Shown in pieces: positions 33,296 to 38,789 of a DNA stretch of 48,273 bases. The number at the start of each line of letters is the position of its first letter. Positions within the stretch are counted from its first letter, which is position 1. The notes under the pieces were generated by a model. That model had not been told where the DNA came from. It searched no databases and worked only from the letters and a program-made list of their open reading frames with translations. The stretch comes from Parvularculaceae bacterium (lineage in GTDB: Bacteria > Pseudomonadota > Alphaproteobacteria > Caulobacterales > Parvularculaceae), in contig JAJFFW010000079.1 in NCBI GenBank assembly GCA_021776435.1, forward strand, positions 1 through 48,273, read 5' to 3'. The translations under genes were made by a program, and so were the position numbers.

Positions 33296-34054
33296 ATGAC
33301 GGCCCAAATCAACACCACCGCGACCATCGATCCCGATGAAGTCAGCAAATTCAGTGCAATTGCTGAGGAATGGTGGGACCCGTTCGGGAAATTCAAGCCG
33401 CTTCACAAATTTAATCCTGTTCGCCTCGCCTATATCCGTGATGCGGTCTGCACCCATTTCAAACGCGACCCCCATTCGAAAAAGCCTTTTGAGGGTCTGA
33501 GGCTTTTAGATGTGGGGTGTGGCGGGGGGCTTGTTGCTGAACCGATGCGTCGGCTGGGAGCCGATGTCACGGCGATTGACGCCTCAGAGCGTAATATCAA
33601 AACCGCCCTCGCCCACTCCATGACGATGAAGCTCGACATTGATTACCGGGCGACGACCGTCGAATCGATTGCCGCGGCAGGATCGCCACCCTTCGACATC
33701 GTCCTTAATCTTGAAGTGGTTGAACACGTCGCAGATATCGATCTTTTTTTGAAAACTTCCGCCGACCTTGTTCGACCCGGTGGGATCATGACACTGGCTT
33801 CTATCAACCGTACACTGAAGGCATTCATCCTCGCCAAAGTTGGAGCGGAGTACGTTCTCGGCTGGCTGCCGCGTGGCGCCCATGATCCCCGCAAATTTGT
33901 GAAACCCGAAGAAGCGCGCCTCATCCTTAAAGGTTCAGGCTTGAACATAACGGCTGTCGCGGGTGTTTCTTATAACCCGTTAATCGACGTCTGGCGCATC
34001 AGTGAGGATACGCAGGTCAATTACATGCTGACGGCGGTGAAGGCACAAAAGTAG
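33296..34054 (+). CDS. ubiG: Ubiquinone biosynthesis O-methyltransferase UbiG
   Basis: UbiG carries out both O-methylations of ubiquinone synthesis. From the ATG at 33296 (GAGGA ribosome site) the product has 252 residues. It begins with the family block DEVSKFSAIAEEWWDPFGKF, then HKFNPVRLAYIRD, the SAM motif LLDVGCGGGLVAEPM, and FDIVLNLEVVEHV. The last residues are VNYMLTAVKAQK. The DNA for VNYMLTAVKA recurs 3.0 kb downstream after the next gene, which suggests that the current 3' end was supplied by an inserted segment. The protein itself looks complete. Confidence 0.95.
   Translation: MTAQINTTATIDPDEVSKFSAIAEEWWDPFGKFKPLHKFNPVRLAYIRDAVCTHFKRDPHSKKPFEGLRLLDVGCGGGLVAEPMRRLGADVTAIDASERNIKTALAHSMTMKLDIDYRATTVESIAAAGSPPFDIVLNLEVVEHVADIDLFLKTSADLVRPGGIMTLASINRTLKAFILAKVGAEYVLGWLPRGAHDPRKFVKPEEARLILKGSGLNITAVAGVSYNPLIDVWRISEDTQVNYMLTAVKAQK
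34016..34044 (+). repeat. Left copy of a 29-bp direct repeat (ubiG 3' end)
   Basis: This 29-base stretch codes for VNYMLTAVKA at the ubiG C-terminus and matches 37012-37040 at 28 of 29 bases. The two copies are 2,996 bases apart and bracket the M28 peptidase gene. It could be one boundary of an insertion into ubiG. Confidence 0.9.
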
Positions 34055-34252: not shown

Positions 34253-36997
34253 ATGAAAGCTATCTTCAGGTCCGTACTCGTGTTGGCGATTTTTGTCGCG
34301 CTGTCCGGCCCGATGAGCATATGGGCGCAACAAAACCACGAGGCAGGCGACTATTCCCCGCAATTTTCCGGCGCAGCGTTTAAGAATCGTGTCCGTTATC
34401 TCGCTTCCGACGAACTGGCGGGCCGGGCGCCGGGAACCGAAGGCGGGCGGCGGGCGGCGGCCTATCTCGCGAAAGAATTCAAGCGCATCGGCCTCGAACC
34501 GCGCGCCGGCGCGAAGGACTTTTTTCAGAACATTCCTCTAGTCGGTTCGACCGTCTCACCCGACAGCGCGCGCCTGACGGTCAACGCCGAAGCCGCGGAC
34601 GGCCCGCTTGTCATCACTCATGACGACATCGCCTTTCGCACCCAATTTATTGACTGCGCGACCTGCATGCTTTCGGGCGAGGTGGTCTTCGGCGGTTATG
34701 GCATCGACGCGAGGGAATACGGCTGGAACGACTACGGCGACGTTTCGCTTGCGGGAAAATTCGTCCTGCTGCTGCGCGGACTCCCGGAAGCCGCCGAAGC
34801 GCTGGTCCCCGGCGGCGGCTACAGCTATTACGAAGACGATGACGTAAAAATCGAACAGGCGCGCCAGCGCGGCGCCGCCGGCGTGATTTTCCTGACTGCG
34901 TCCGACCAAGAATCCAATTTCTCCGATACGGCCGCAGCGTGGCGGCAGGAATTCGTTCAGCCGGACTGGCTGCGCGGCCGGCCCTTATCCGTTATCGCAT
35001 GGCTTTCGCCCGATGCGACTGCACGGTTTTTGGACGCCGCCGGCGGGTCTCTTGACGCCCTTAGCGCTGAAGCCGCGCAGGCCACGTTCGCCGTCCGCCC
35101 TCTCGGCGCATCTCTGCAAGGGAGTTTTACGCAGTCGGTGCGGCGGTTTTCTTCGTCTAATATCGTTGGCGTCGTTCCGGGCGCAGCGCCTGAAACCGGA
35201 ACCGTCGTCGTCACCGCCCATTGGGATCATTTGGGCGTCGGCGCGCCCGACGAGGACGGCGACGCCATATATAACGGCGCAAAGGATAATGCGTCAGGCG
35301 TGGCGGGATTGATCGCCCTCGCCGAAGCGGCGAAAGCGGCGGGCGCGCAGCGAAATATCGTCTTTGTCGCCACGACGGCGGAAGAAGCGGACTATGCGCA
35401 AATCGGCGCGCGCTATTATGTCGAACATCCCGCCTTTCCCATCGCTGAGACGGTCGTCAATTTGAATTTCGACGGCGTCGACGTCATCTGGCCGGCGCGT
35501 AATTTTATGGTCATGCCGCCCAATGGAACATCGGCGGGGCCGACAATGGCCGCGCTCGCCAAACCGCTGAATAAAACGGTCACGGAGCAACCCTGGCTGC
35601 CGAGTCTCAATTTCAGCTTCGATACGGCGGAATTCATGGCGCAGGGCGTGCCGGGCGTCACGCTGTGGGGCGGCTCGGGATTCCGCCTCGAGAACCTGAC
35701 CGTTGACGCGCTGCGCAAGCGCTATGCGCGGCTGGGCGGCAAGATTCATACGCCCCAGGACGAATATTCCAAGGACTGGAGCGAAAAGGCGATTGAAGAG
35801 CATCTCGAACTCTATTGGGCGGCCCTTTCCTATTGGGCCAATGGCGGCGCGGCCCTGATTATCGATCCGAAAGGCCCTCTTGCGCCGCTCCTCGCGGCGG
35901 GCGGTCCGCCCTATCGCGCGCTGGCGGAGAAAATCGTCGAGCGCATGGACCTTCAGCCTGGCGAAAAGGTGCTGATGCTGTGTCATCCGACTCTATTTCA
36001 GAAAATCATTCCGCATTTGCGCTACGCCGTGATGCGCGCCGGCGGCGTCAATCTGGGTTGCCTGCAGGATTTGCCGCAGCCTTTCCCGCGCTACTGGCGG
36101 CGTGATCCCGTCCTGCGCGGCTTTACAGAAAGCCGCGACGCCATGGCCCGCATGGCGCGCGCCGCCGACGCATTTATCGCCCTGCCCGGAACCTGGCCGA
36201 ACCAGTCCGCTTATCTGGGCGTTCAGGATATTTTAAAGAGCGGCCGGGGGCGGATCGTGCATTTCCACTGGCTCGGCGGCTATTCGCTTTTAAGAGAACA
36301 GCTGCCGGCGACGCCGCGGATGGACCGCACCTACGCGGTCGCCGTTCTTGAAACCGATTACGACGCTCTCGCCGATCAGCAGAGGCGTTTTGTCGACGCC
36401 GCGCGCAAGGGCGAAATCAGAGTGACCACGCCCGCCGGCACGGATGTCCGCTTCCGTCTCGGCAAACGCCGCCCTGTCAATATCCAGGACGGCGACGCCT
36501 CGGCGGTGCGGGCGCTCCAGGCGAAGATATTGATCGACCGCGAGGTCGAACTGCCCGCCGGCGCGGTGCGCTTCGCGCCGATCGAGGATAGCGTCGAAGG
36601 CTTCATCGTGTTTACGGATTCCTACTGGAACGACGAATTCGTACGCGCGCCCCGCCTGACGTTCCGGCAGGGACAAGTCGTGGAAGTCTCAGCCGCGGAA
36701 AACGTCGCGGCGCTGGAAGCCGAACTTGAAGGAGGCGGCGAGGCGGCCCGGCGCCTGCGCGGCTTCGCGCTCGGTTTCAATCCGTATCTCGCCGTCCCTG
36801 AAGACGAACCCTGGATTCCCTATTACGGATACGGCGCCGGTGTCGTGCGCCTGTCCCTCGGCGAAAACGGTGAGCTCGGCGGCAAGATCAAAGGCGATTA
36901 TTCCCGCTGGAACTTTTTCACCGACGCGACGGTCGAAATCGACGGCGTCGCCTGGGTTGAAAACGGAAAGCTCGTCAATACGCCGCCGGCGCAATAG
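34253..36997 (+). CDS. Secreted M28 metallopeptidase fused to a degenerate M29/NicX-like domain
   Basis: A 914-residue protein with a signal peptide (cleavage near WAQ, residue 26). Residues about 40-530 form an M28 aminopeptidase with a PA-type insert. All expected zinc ligands are visible: H323 and D325 in TAHWDHLG, D345 in KDNASG, E377-E378, D407 in NLNFDGVD, and H499 in KIHTPQDEY. Residues about 555-914 resemble M29 aminopeptidase T/NicX proteins: LQPGEKVLMLCHP, TTPAGTDVRFRLG, ELPAGAVRFAPIEDS, the FALGFNP motif, and a terminal DATVEIDG. Several residues where M29 has metal ligands differ: GEV is GAV at 770-772, and the expected histidines appear as R866 and W886. This second half is probably inactive as a peptidase. 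The gene is GC-richer than its neighbours. Confidence 0.82.
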   Translation: MKAIFRSVLVLAIFVALSGPMSIWAQQNHEAGDYSPQFSGAAFKNRVRYLASDELAGRAPGTEGGRRAAAYLAKEFKRIGLEPRAGAKDFFQNIPLVGSTVSPDSARLTVNAEAADGPLVITHDDIAFRTQFIDCATCMLSGEVVFGGYGIDAREYGWNDYGDVSLAGKFVLLLRGLPEAAEALVPGGGYSYYEDDDVKIEQARQRGAAGVIFLTASDQESNFSDTAAAWRQEFVQPDWLRGRPLSVIAWLSPDATARFLDAAGGSLDALSAEAAQATFAVRPLGASLQGSFTQSVRRFSSSNIVGVVPGAAPETGTVVVTAHWDHLGVGAPDEDGDAIYNGAKDNASGVAGLIALAEAAKAAGAQRNIVFVATTAEEADYAQIGARYYVEHPAFPIAETVVNLNFDGVDVIWPARNFMVMPPNGTSAGPTMAALAKPLNKTVTEQPWLPSLNFSFDTAEFMAQGVPGVTLWGGSGFRLENLTVDALRKRYARLGGKIHTPQDEYSKDWSEKAIEEHLELYWAALSYWANGGAALIIDPKGPLAPLLAAGGPPYRALAEKIVERMDLQPGEKVLMLCHPTLFQKIIPHLRYAVMRAGGVNLGCLQDLPQPFPRYWRRDPVLRGFTESRDAMARMARAADAFIALPGTWPNQSAYLGVQDILKSGRGRIVHFHWLGGYSLLREQLPATPRMDRTYAVAVLETDYDALADQQRRFVDAARKGEIRVTTPAGTDVRFRLGKRRPVNIQDGDASAVRALQAKILIDREVELPAGAVRFAPIEDSVEGFIVFTDSYWNDEFVRAPRLTFRQGQVVEVSAAENVAALEAELEGGGEAARRLRGFALGFNPYLAVPEDEPWIPYYGYGAGVVRLSLGENGELGGKIKGDYSRWNFFTDATVEIDGVAWVENGKLVNTPPAQ

Positions 36998-37053
36998 ATT
37001 ATAACGTCAGCGTCAATTATATGCTGACGGCGGTGAAGGCGGGGGATCGTTAA
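36997..37053 (+). pseudogene. Detached second copy of the ubiG 3' end
   Basis: Overlapping the stop of the M28 gene by one base, the plus strand reads D-Y-N-V-S-VNYMLTAVKA-GDR-stop in one frame, which is a UbiG C-terminus without the rest of the gene. Its TAA (37051-37053) overlaps the stop of the convergent patatin gene. It is best explained as the original or donor end of ubiG, now cut off by an inserted segment. It has no start and is not expected to be translated. Confidence 0.8.
37012..37040 (+). repeat. Right copy of the 29-bp ubiG-end direct repeat
   Basis: Matches 34016-34044 at 28 of 29 bases, with one C-to-T change in the third position of the Tyr codon. With the left copy it frames a unit of about 3.0 kb. 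Confidence 0.9.
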
Positions 37054-38789
37054 TCACCCCGCGCCGCCTCGGCGATTGGGCCTAGCGTCGCCCAGTGCGC
37101 TTTAATGGCGTCTTTCGTTACTTCATAACCGGACGTCACGGCAGAACCGTATAAGCGCCAGTCGCGTAATTCGACACCGGCAACGTCGGGTGCAATCATA
37201 ATGTCGGCAGGGTGCGCCATGAGCGTATTTTCATGGCGGGCGGTCGCGGAGCGCATCAAAAGACTGACGATCGGCGGCGCGCTGCGAAAACCGTGCTTCC
37301 CTATCCAACGAAGAAAGCCGGGGGGGTCCTCAAAATCAGCGGCTCTGATCGAGCCACGGCGGGCCACATCAATACCGATGGTCAATCCGCGATGCATGCC
37401 CGACATCAAGTCAGTGGGGAAATTATTAATCACCGCGCCATCGACAAGTAGCGCTGCGCCATCGACCACCGGCGGTAGAATTCCCGGCAACGCGATGGAA
37501 GCCCGCAAGGCCTTCCGTAGCAGGCCCCGTCGATGCACCCGCACCACGCCTTCGGTGAGTTCTGAAGAAACGCAGAAAAACGGCAGCATAAGGTCTTCGA
37601 TCCGCGCATCGCCGAAGTGCGTCAGGAGCCTGTCTTCGACGCGCTTTCCCCGCGTCAACGCCACGACCGGCAATACGTGGTCAGAGAGTGGATTAGAAAA
37701 TACAAAAGCTTCACAGATGCGACGCTCTATTTCTTCATCCGACCATTCCATAGCGACGCAGGCGGCAACGATCCCACCCATGCTCGATCCACAAACAAAA
37801 TCAATCGGCACACCCGCTTCCCGCAAAGCTTTAACAGCGCCGATCTGCGCATAAGCGCGCGCGCCGCCACCCGAAAGCACCAGTCCGACTGAAACCCCTC
37901 CAATGGCGCGTGCAAGACGATTAACACAAGCATCATTGCGCAGATGGAAGATCCGATTTGCATCTATCGCGTCCACCCATTCGAGCACCTCACATGCGGG
38001 TTCTCCTTCATGGAGGATCACGAGATCGACCAGCCGGAACTTACGCGCCGGTGAGTCTTCTGCCGGCATTAAAGGGAAAGGTTTTGACGGCCTCGCATCT
38101 CTCCGTGCAAAGACGAAGAAGCGGTCGGCTTGGCGCAAGACAAATCGATACCAGGGCGAGTCGGCAATGCGTGCGGCGAGAATAACAATATCGTGGGTGG
38201 CTTCGATATTTTCAGCGGTTTGCGTCGGTGGCGCCGTCTCCGCGTCCGGCATGAAATGGACCGAGAGGCCATATCGCTCGATTTTTTTCGCCATCCGATT
38301 GGCCAACGCATCGATATCAATCGACGGAGAAGAACCAATCAGGGCAAAAACGCGTGGTGAAGACTGACTAAAGTTCGATTTGGGATGACGGGTTCGCCCC
38401 AACACCGCCCGAACCAAAAGACCTGCGAGGTCTGAATGCTCTTCAAAAAGCGCGTCAAAATCAGCTTGCGACAAAGCGAGGATTTCAGTATCCCGCAAGG
38501 CGTAAACGGACGCCGAATGCCGCTCGTCAGAAAGAAGCGCCATTTCCCCAACGGGTTCGCCGGCGCGAATATATCCAATCACCTCTTCGCCGTCCGGACA
38601 TTGACGAACGACAATCAGACGCCCTGAAAGTACGAAATAGATGGTATCGGACGGCGCGCCCTGTTTAAACAATTCCCATCCACCGGCAAGCGAATACCAC
38701 TGCCCGCGATCAATCATCGCTCTGCGTGTCGCCGGTTCAAGGGAGCGAAAAAATTCGAGTTGGTTAAGGCGTTCGACGACTGGTTTCAT
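37050..38789 (-). CDS. cNMP-binding patatin-like phospholipase (NTE/PNPLA6 type)
   Basis: The 579-residue product joins an N-terminal cyclic-nucleotide-binding domain (about 12-130, with GEPVGEMALLSDERHSAS as the phosphate cassette) to a C-terminal patatin hydrolase domain. The oxyanion loop is LVLSGGGARAYAQIG near 304-318. The nucleophile is S336 in GSSMGG, and the dyad aspartate is D450 in LLVDGAVINNFP. The middle segment (about 145-290) is of the type found in neuropathy-target-esterase relatives. Such proteins hydrolyse lysophospholipids at membranes; cNMP binding may regulate them. It converges with ubiG, its stop overlapping the detached ubiG tail. The 273-base gap upstream (38790-39062) holds no gene. 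Confidence 0.92.
   Translation of the reverse strand: MKPVVERLNQLEFFRSLEPATRRAMIDRGQWYSLAGGWELFKQGAPSDTIYFVLSGRLIVVRQCPDGEEVIGYIRAGEPVGEMALLSDERHSASVYALRDTEILALSQADFDALFEEHSDLAGLLVRAVLGRTRHPKSNFSQSSPRVFALIGSSPSIDIDALANRMAKKIERYGLSVHFMPDAETAPPTQTAENIEATHDIVILAARIADSPWYRFVLRQADRFFVFARRDARPSKPFPLMPAEDSPARKFRLVDLVILHEGEPACEVLEWVDAIDANRIFHLRNDACVNRLARAIGGVSVGLVLSGGGARAYAQIGAVKALREAGVPIDFVCGSSMGGIVAACVAMEWSDEEIERRICEAFVFSNPLSDHVLPVVALTRGKRVEDRLLTHFGDARIEDLMLPFFCVSSELTEGVVRVHRRGLLRKALRASIALPGILPPVVDGAALLVDGAVINNFPTDLMSGMHRGLTIGIDVARRGSIRAADFEDPPGFLRWIGKHGFRSAPPIVSLLMRSATARHENTLMAHPADIMIAPDVAGVELRDWRLYGSAVTSGYEVTKDAIKAHWATLGPIAEAARGD

Follow-up and report, generated by a model that had tools for sequence, protein, structure and literature searches.

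The window, a 48,273-nucleotide stretch of DNA from a Parvularculaceae bacterium, carries a gene whose product joins an M28 peptidase domain with a complete set of metal ligands to a C-terminal domain of predicted M29 fold that lacks every one of the M29 active-site residues. The design is that of a pseudoenzyme domain joined to an active-looking peptidase; the principle is known, and the pairing of M28 with M29 turned up in none of the other genomes searched. Our preferred reading, to which we give an even chance, is that of an exported two-domain aminopeptidase in which the M28 domain would cut while the pseudo-M29 domain would bind peptide or select the substrate. Fusions of a dead with a live enzyme are natural experiments on the regulation of catalysis and, to our knowledge, very few M29-fold pseudoenzymes are known (CgnE being a case). 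Among those found here, only the present domain shares a polypeptide with an active-looking peptidase of unrelated fold.

Domain organization and the M28 domain

The fusion gene occupies 914 codons in one frame without interruption. Its N-terminal portion comprises the following features.

34253..36997, + strand: whole fusion gene, signal peptide plus M28 peptidase plus pseudo-M29 domain, 914 amino acids (single open frame; Pfam)
34253..34330, + strand: Sec-type signal peptide, residues 1 to about 26 (MKAIFRSVLVLAIFVALSGPMSIWAQ; read by eye)
34676..34909, + strand: PA-like insert in the M28 region, residues 142-219 (PF02225, E = 5.7e-4)
35159..35815, + strand: M28 catalytic domain, residues 303-521 (PF04389, E = 1.7e-31; weak match to the aminopeptidase YwaD, 6hc6)
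35219..35749, + strand: span of the M28 ligands and catalytic glutamate (motif positions; conserved with 14 homologues)
35219-35221, + strand: His323, M28 ligand
35285-35287, + strand: Asp345, M28 ligand
35381-35386, + strand: Glu377, catalytic glutamate, and Glu378, ligand
35471-35473, + strand: Asp407, M28 ligand
35747-35749, + strand: His499, M28 ligand

The N-terminus, MKAIFRSVLVLAIFVALSGPMSIWA-QQ, appears by eye to combine a basic start, a hydrophobic core and a cleavage-like site, IWA-Q. The catalytic domain belongs to family M28, scoring 109.9 bits with PF04389 (Peptidase_M28) against a curated threshold of 21.3, and alignment with 14 M28 homologues shows that the five metal ligands and the catalytic Glu377 are all present (6/6) and conserved. 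The first-pass annotation, made from the sequence, had described an active-looking secreted M28 peptidase with all ligands present, and these results agree with it. We predict that the domain is an active, exported dizinc exopeptidase. The PA match is sub-threshold, at 20.4 bits against a cut-off of 23.9, and no NCBIfam model scores above its cut-off with the fusion protein. The closest relatives of this half are stand-alone M28 proteins, mostly sharing 30-36% identity across residues 30-530. Since the same genome holds two other M28 genes, the fusion represents an extra M28 copy.

Fold of the C-terminal domain

The C-terminal domain is located as follows.

35909..36982, + strand: pseudo-M29 domain, residues 553-910, about 360 amino acids (PF02073 above cut-off; AlphaFold/VIA Z 23-27)

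In the whole protein PF02073 (Peptidase_M29) matches residues 709-841 with 29.1 bits, and when the C-terminal domain is taken alone the score rises to 31.3 bits, both above the curated cut-off of 27. Neither the domain by itself nor one stand-alone relative matched any sequence in the PDB, and a wider profile was needed. An AlphaFold model of residues 545-914 was obtained with pLDDT 86.7 and pTM 0.88 using a 24-row alignment; it supersedes an earlier, poor model made with five rows (pLDDT 58).

In a Foldseek search with the later model the best eleven chains were all of the M29/NicX fold. The best match by VIA-align was to NicX (Z 26.8, 316 residues, rmsd 3.9), followed by AmpT (Z 25.0, 340 residues), PepS (Z 23.8) and AmpS (Z 23.5), so that the four lie at Z 23-27 with 313-341 residues aligned. 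CgnE (Z 12.3) and CgnB (Z 11.8) came next, and the first unrelated chain scored 7.9. The Pfam, profile and structure scores together exclude a chance resemblance to M29. The model includes the N-terminal half of M29 and hence both parts of the fold, which by prediction establishes the M29/NicX-like domain that had been proposed from the sequence.

Retention of the whole fold, N-terminal half included, would also be expected of a scaffold that dimerises or stabilises the M28 domain, or spaces two M28 sites, and binds no substrate. M29 enzymes dimerise through their N-terminal halves. The dimers formed by M29 aminopeptidases are extensive (PMC10070186), and the complete loss of ligands described below is what one would expect if the scaffold alone mattered. 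The M28 relatives that we found are stand-alone proteins, which tells against such a role. We regard it as a minor possibility, albeit one to be taken seriously, and the evidence for peptide binding fits a pure dimerisation scaffold too.

Loss of the metal-binding residues

AmpS binds its metals through Glu253, Glu319, His348, His381 and Asp383, with Tyr355 nearby, and in Listeria AmpII mutation of any one of the six equivalent residues kills activity (PMC7023490). Profile alignment places the following residues of the fusion protein at these positions.

36563..36565, + strand: Ala771, at the place of AmpS Glu253
36761..36763, + strand: Gly837, at the place of AmpS Glu319 (bridging ligand) and NicX His265; Glu in every stand-alone member of the clade described below
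36848..36850, + strand: Arg866, at the place of AmpS His348; Arg clade-wide
36869..36871, + strand: Gly873, at the place of AmpS Tyr355
36902..36904, + strand: Ser884, at the place of AmpS His381 and NicX His318; His in all stand-alone clade relatives
36908..36910, + strand: Trp886, at the place of AmpS Asp383 and NicX Asp320; Trp clade-wide

The active-site set E-E-H-Y-H-D is therefore replaced at six of six positions. Ala771, Arg866 and Trp886 had already been named as substitutions in the first-pass annotation; they are confirmed, and the loss is in fact complete, with a fold match found and no family ligand retained. The NicX site fares little better. Iron binding by that enzyme needs His265, Ser302, His318 and Asp320 (PMC7910607), which correspond in profile alignment to Gly837, Ser868, Ser884 and Trp886, so that three of the four ligands are lost and the serine alone is kept. 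Judged by its residues, the domain can act neither as a canonical M29 aminopeptidase nor as a dioxygenase of the NicX type.

A clade of stand-alone relatives

Profile searches identified four stand-alone relatives of the C-terminal domain in Alphaproteobacteria (L019-L022), with 30-34% identity to the fused domain, and a fifth in a Rokubacterium (L059, 4785-6059, + strand), which at 37% identity is the closest and retains Glu319 and His381. A partial match in Panacagrimonas (L062) seems to be spurious. The fused domain and the five stand-alone proteins are monophyletic (support 100/99) and separate from the canonical M29 and NicX branches. The fused domain carries the signature of invariant columns that marks this clade, HFHW / DxExExPxG / GxNxExGG / W, of which two elements are located as follows.

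36260..36271, + strand: HFHW motif, residues 670-673, the clade hallmark (invariant in six sequences)
36536..36550, + strand: Asp762-x-Glu764-x-Glu766 motif, just ahead of the ancestral Glu253 position (clade-invariant)

The stand-alone members have no evident export signal and their M29 scores fall under the Pfam cut-off. All of them already show the changes His348 to Arg, Asp383 to Trp and Glu253 to Ala or Cys while keeping Glu319 and His381; only in the fused copy are the latter two also gone (Gly837 and Ser884). The clade was already without four of the six M29 residues, and the sequences suggest that ligand degeneration mostly predates the fusion. The earlier idea of a pseudoenzyme paired with an active-looking peptidase holds in kind. 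The domain is, however, more than an AmpT that has broken down: it belongs to an older, altered M29-like clade and has kept that clade's own polar residues.

Positions invariant among the stand-alone members number 106, of which 58 are kept in the fused copy and 48 lost; His670, His672, Trp673, Asp762, Glu764, Glu766, Arg866, Asn872, Glu874 and Trp886 are common to all six members. Invariant positions are enriched near the former ligand segments (23/77 compared with 34/280; Fisher p = 4e-4), on the thin basis of six sequences. On account of this enrichment and of the clade residues kept, the pocket looks altered but maintained by selection rather than plainly decayed. The invariance of clade-specific polar residues near the old active-site segments is not obviously needed by a scaffold.

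It might instead point to another kind of active site in the clade, such as the HxH of HFHW together with DxExE, Arg866, Glu874 and Trp886, with which the domain catalyses or binds something unlike the substrates of M29 or NicX. That nine polar or aromatic residues (His670, His672, Asp762, Glu764, Glu766, Arg866, Asn872, Glu874 and Trp886) persist in 6/6 members, and that the fused copy retained the clade polar residues even though it lost Glu319 and His381, would be explained in this way; yet the argument draws on six sequences, and the model places HFHW on or beside a strand of the N-terminal half. We judge this alternative to be unlikely. A broader version, which we put forward tentatively and with rather little confidence, treats the HFHW proteins as a so far undescribed branch of the M29/NicX fold. 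Their polar site would have been remodelled and is proposed to consist of HxH, DxExE, and the Arg and Trp that replace metal ligands; in the fusion this site would capture peptides or perform new chemistry on them. The stand-alone clade is an unnamed family with fixed replacements at the ligand positions and with conservation of other polar residues, which makes peptide binding or new chemistry directly testable.

The branch leading to the fused copy is long, at 1.24 changes per site, and this, with the 48 lost positions and the occurrence of the fusion in only one of the genomes scanned, could be read as the mark of a recent accidental fusion or of a functionless domain in decay. Against this, the 370-codon frame is intact and free of stops, codon-position bias is normal throughout, GC3 is close to that of the M28 half and the fold prediction is confident. 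The domain looks maintained, and we consider decay very unlikely.

A check of whether M28 genes lie beside the stand-alone clade genes, following the Rosetta-stone idea, gave no match; it was partial, with two neighbourhoods poorly resolved and several contigs short.

Distribution of the architecture

The first-pass annotation knew of no described protein of this design and suggested a search for the same architecture in other genomes. In about 890 distinct genomes, a partial sampling drawn from sets of 61 relatives, 398 genomes of the phylum, 41 of the family, 385 of the class, and 81 and 23 of two other orders, we found no second M28-M29 fusion. A pattern scan across 84,980 species returned none among the matches listed (four loci), viral contigs gave no match, and plasmids yielded no fusion and only one distant aminopeptidase-like gene from Hymenobacter. 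The literature searched describes no M28-M29 fusion protein, and neither family is mentioned in a review of inactive homologues of metallopeptidases.

Large open frames around some M29 matches (L105-L107) were set aside, since they look like shadow frames and the genes downstream of them are ordinary NicX-like or M29-like ones; L108 and L109 have no shadow-type frame of at least 550 codons. The Hymenobacter plasmid gene (L002, 2683-3603, + strand), annotated as an aminopeptidase, seems to have lost its proper C-terminus by truncation or frameshift, and M29 ligands are absent where it aligns. Outside the HFHW clade, a further candidate secreted M29 pseudoenzyme is a lipoprotein-like exported protein of the M29 family, 426 amino acids long (L003, 1489-2769, - strand; PF02073, 1.7e-15), from a genome of gammaproteobacterial appearance (G090); it is without most of the aligned metal ligands.

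Genomic context and origin

GC3 is 0.71 and 0.75 in the two halves of the fusion gene, compared with 0.557 ± 0.051 in host ORFs (z = 3.3; 45 ORFs of the same genome, from three contigs). Four of the family genomes examined have ubiG and a CRP-patatin gene as immediate, convergent neighbours, whereas in the window the fusion gene separates the two. The CRP-patatin gene (37050-38789, - strand) encodes a cyclic-nucleotide-binding domain and a patatin-like phospholipase, and adjoins ubiG in the relatives. A direct repeat brackets the fusion gene.

34016..34044, + strand: left copy, within the 3' end of ubiG (28 of 29 nucleotides identical to 37012-37040)
37012..37040, + strand: right copy, a second, diverged ubiG 3' end directly after the fusion gene (one mismatch in 29 nucleotides)

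Translated by eye, the frame of the right copy gives DYNVSVNYMLTAVKAGDR-stop, which resembles a second ubiG C-terminus and ends GDR-stop. On the simplest reading, recombination at the ubiG end brought in a segment of about 3 kb with the fusion gene only. Since both halves are GC-rich, the ubiG end is duplicated and the flanking genes are adjacent in four relatives, the gene probably arrived as one imported unit. The foreign composition common to both halves suggests that the fusion was already formed in the donor and probably predates the import, which it has survived; this too speaks against decay.

The genome is a draft of 142 contigs, and an assembly error or frameshift that joined two genes has to be considered. 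The join nevertheless lies within one frame, GC3 is uniform across the halves and the junction shows no signal peptide. Native genes flank both sides, ubiG and the CRP-patatin gene being neighbours in relatives, which implies no contig joint and argues against misassembly. We think such an artefact highly improbable.

Proposed function and comparison with known systems

The first-pass annotation had suggested a substrate-binding or regulatory role for the second domain, and such a role may be proposed by analogy. In the reading that we prefer, the M28 domain would be a working dizinc exopeptidase and the C-terminal domain an M29-fold pseudoenzyme, unable to hold the M29 metals and with an accessory role. 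The old M29 substrate cavity would most likely bind peptide, and the bound peptide might thereby be presented to, or selected for, the M28 site. One consideration weighs against a peptide-binding role. NicX is the top fold match, and the substrate of NicX is a small heterocycle; the ancestral ligand of the HFHW clade need not have been a peptide.

The M29 aminopeptidases AmpS (1zjc), AmpT (2ayi) and PepS (4icq) share their complete fold with the C-terminal domain (Z 23-25, 333-341 residues), which differs in that 6/6 active-site residues are replaced and in its position behind a secreted M28 peptidase. The resemblance to the 2,5-dihydroxypyridine dioxygenase NicX (7cup, 7cn3) extends to the serine at the place of Ser302, whereas the iron ligands His265, His318 and Asp320 give way to Gly837, Ser884 and Trp886. 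The stand-alone HFHW proteins are 30-37% identical over the whole domain and have the same changes at His348, Asp383 and Glu253, but are unfused, lack an evident signal peptide and retain Glu319 and His381.

For the M28 half, the exported M28 peptidases of related proteobacteria and YwaD (6hc6) likewise possess all the ligands; they are stand-alone proteins, mostly of 550-600 amino acids, without a C-terminal M29 domain. A dead domain beside live ones has a precedent in carboxypeptidase D (M14), in which an inactive peptidase domain occurs in tandem with active ones (PMC11266112). The latter is an animal, membrane-bound protein in which one family is repeated, whereas the fusion combines two unrelated folds.

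CgnE, from crocagin biosynthesis, offers a precedent for peptide binding, being a metal-free M29-fold protein from a set of peptide-binding proteins (PMC10070186). This precedent, and the rank of CgnE and CgnB as the next-best structural matches, support the peptide-binding reading. The C-terminal domain is not itself a member of the CgnB/CgnE family: it has the full-length fold, is fused to M28 and has ordinary neighbour genes, whereas CgnE (6zsu), at about 305 amino acids, largely lacks the M29 dimer half, is stand-alone, belongs to a RiPP cluster and matches at a Z of only 12. What the two have in common is an M29-derived fold without a metal site.
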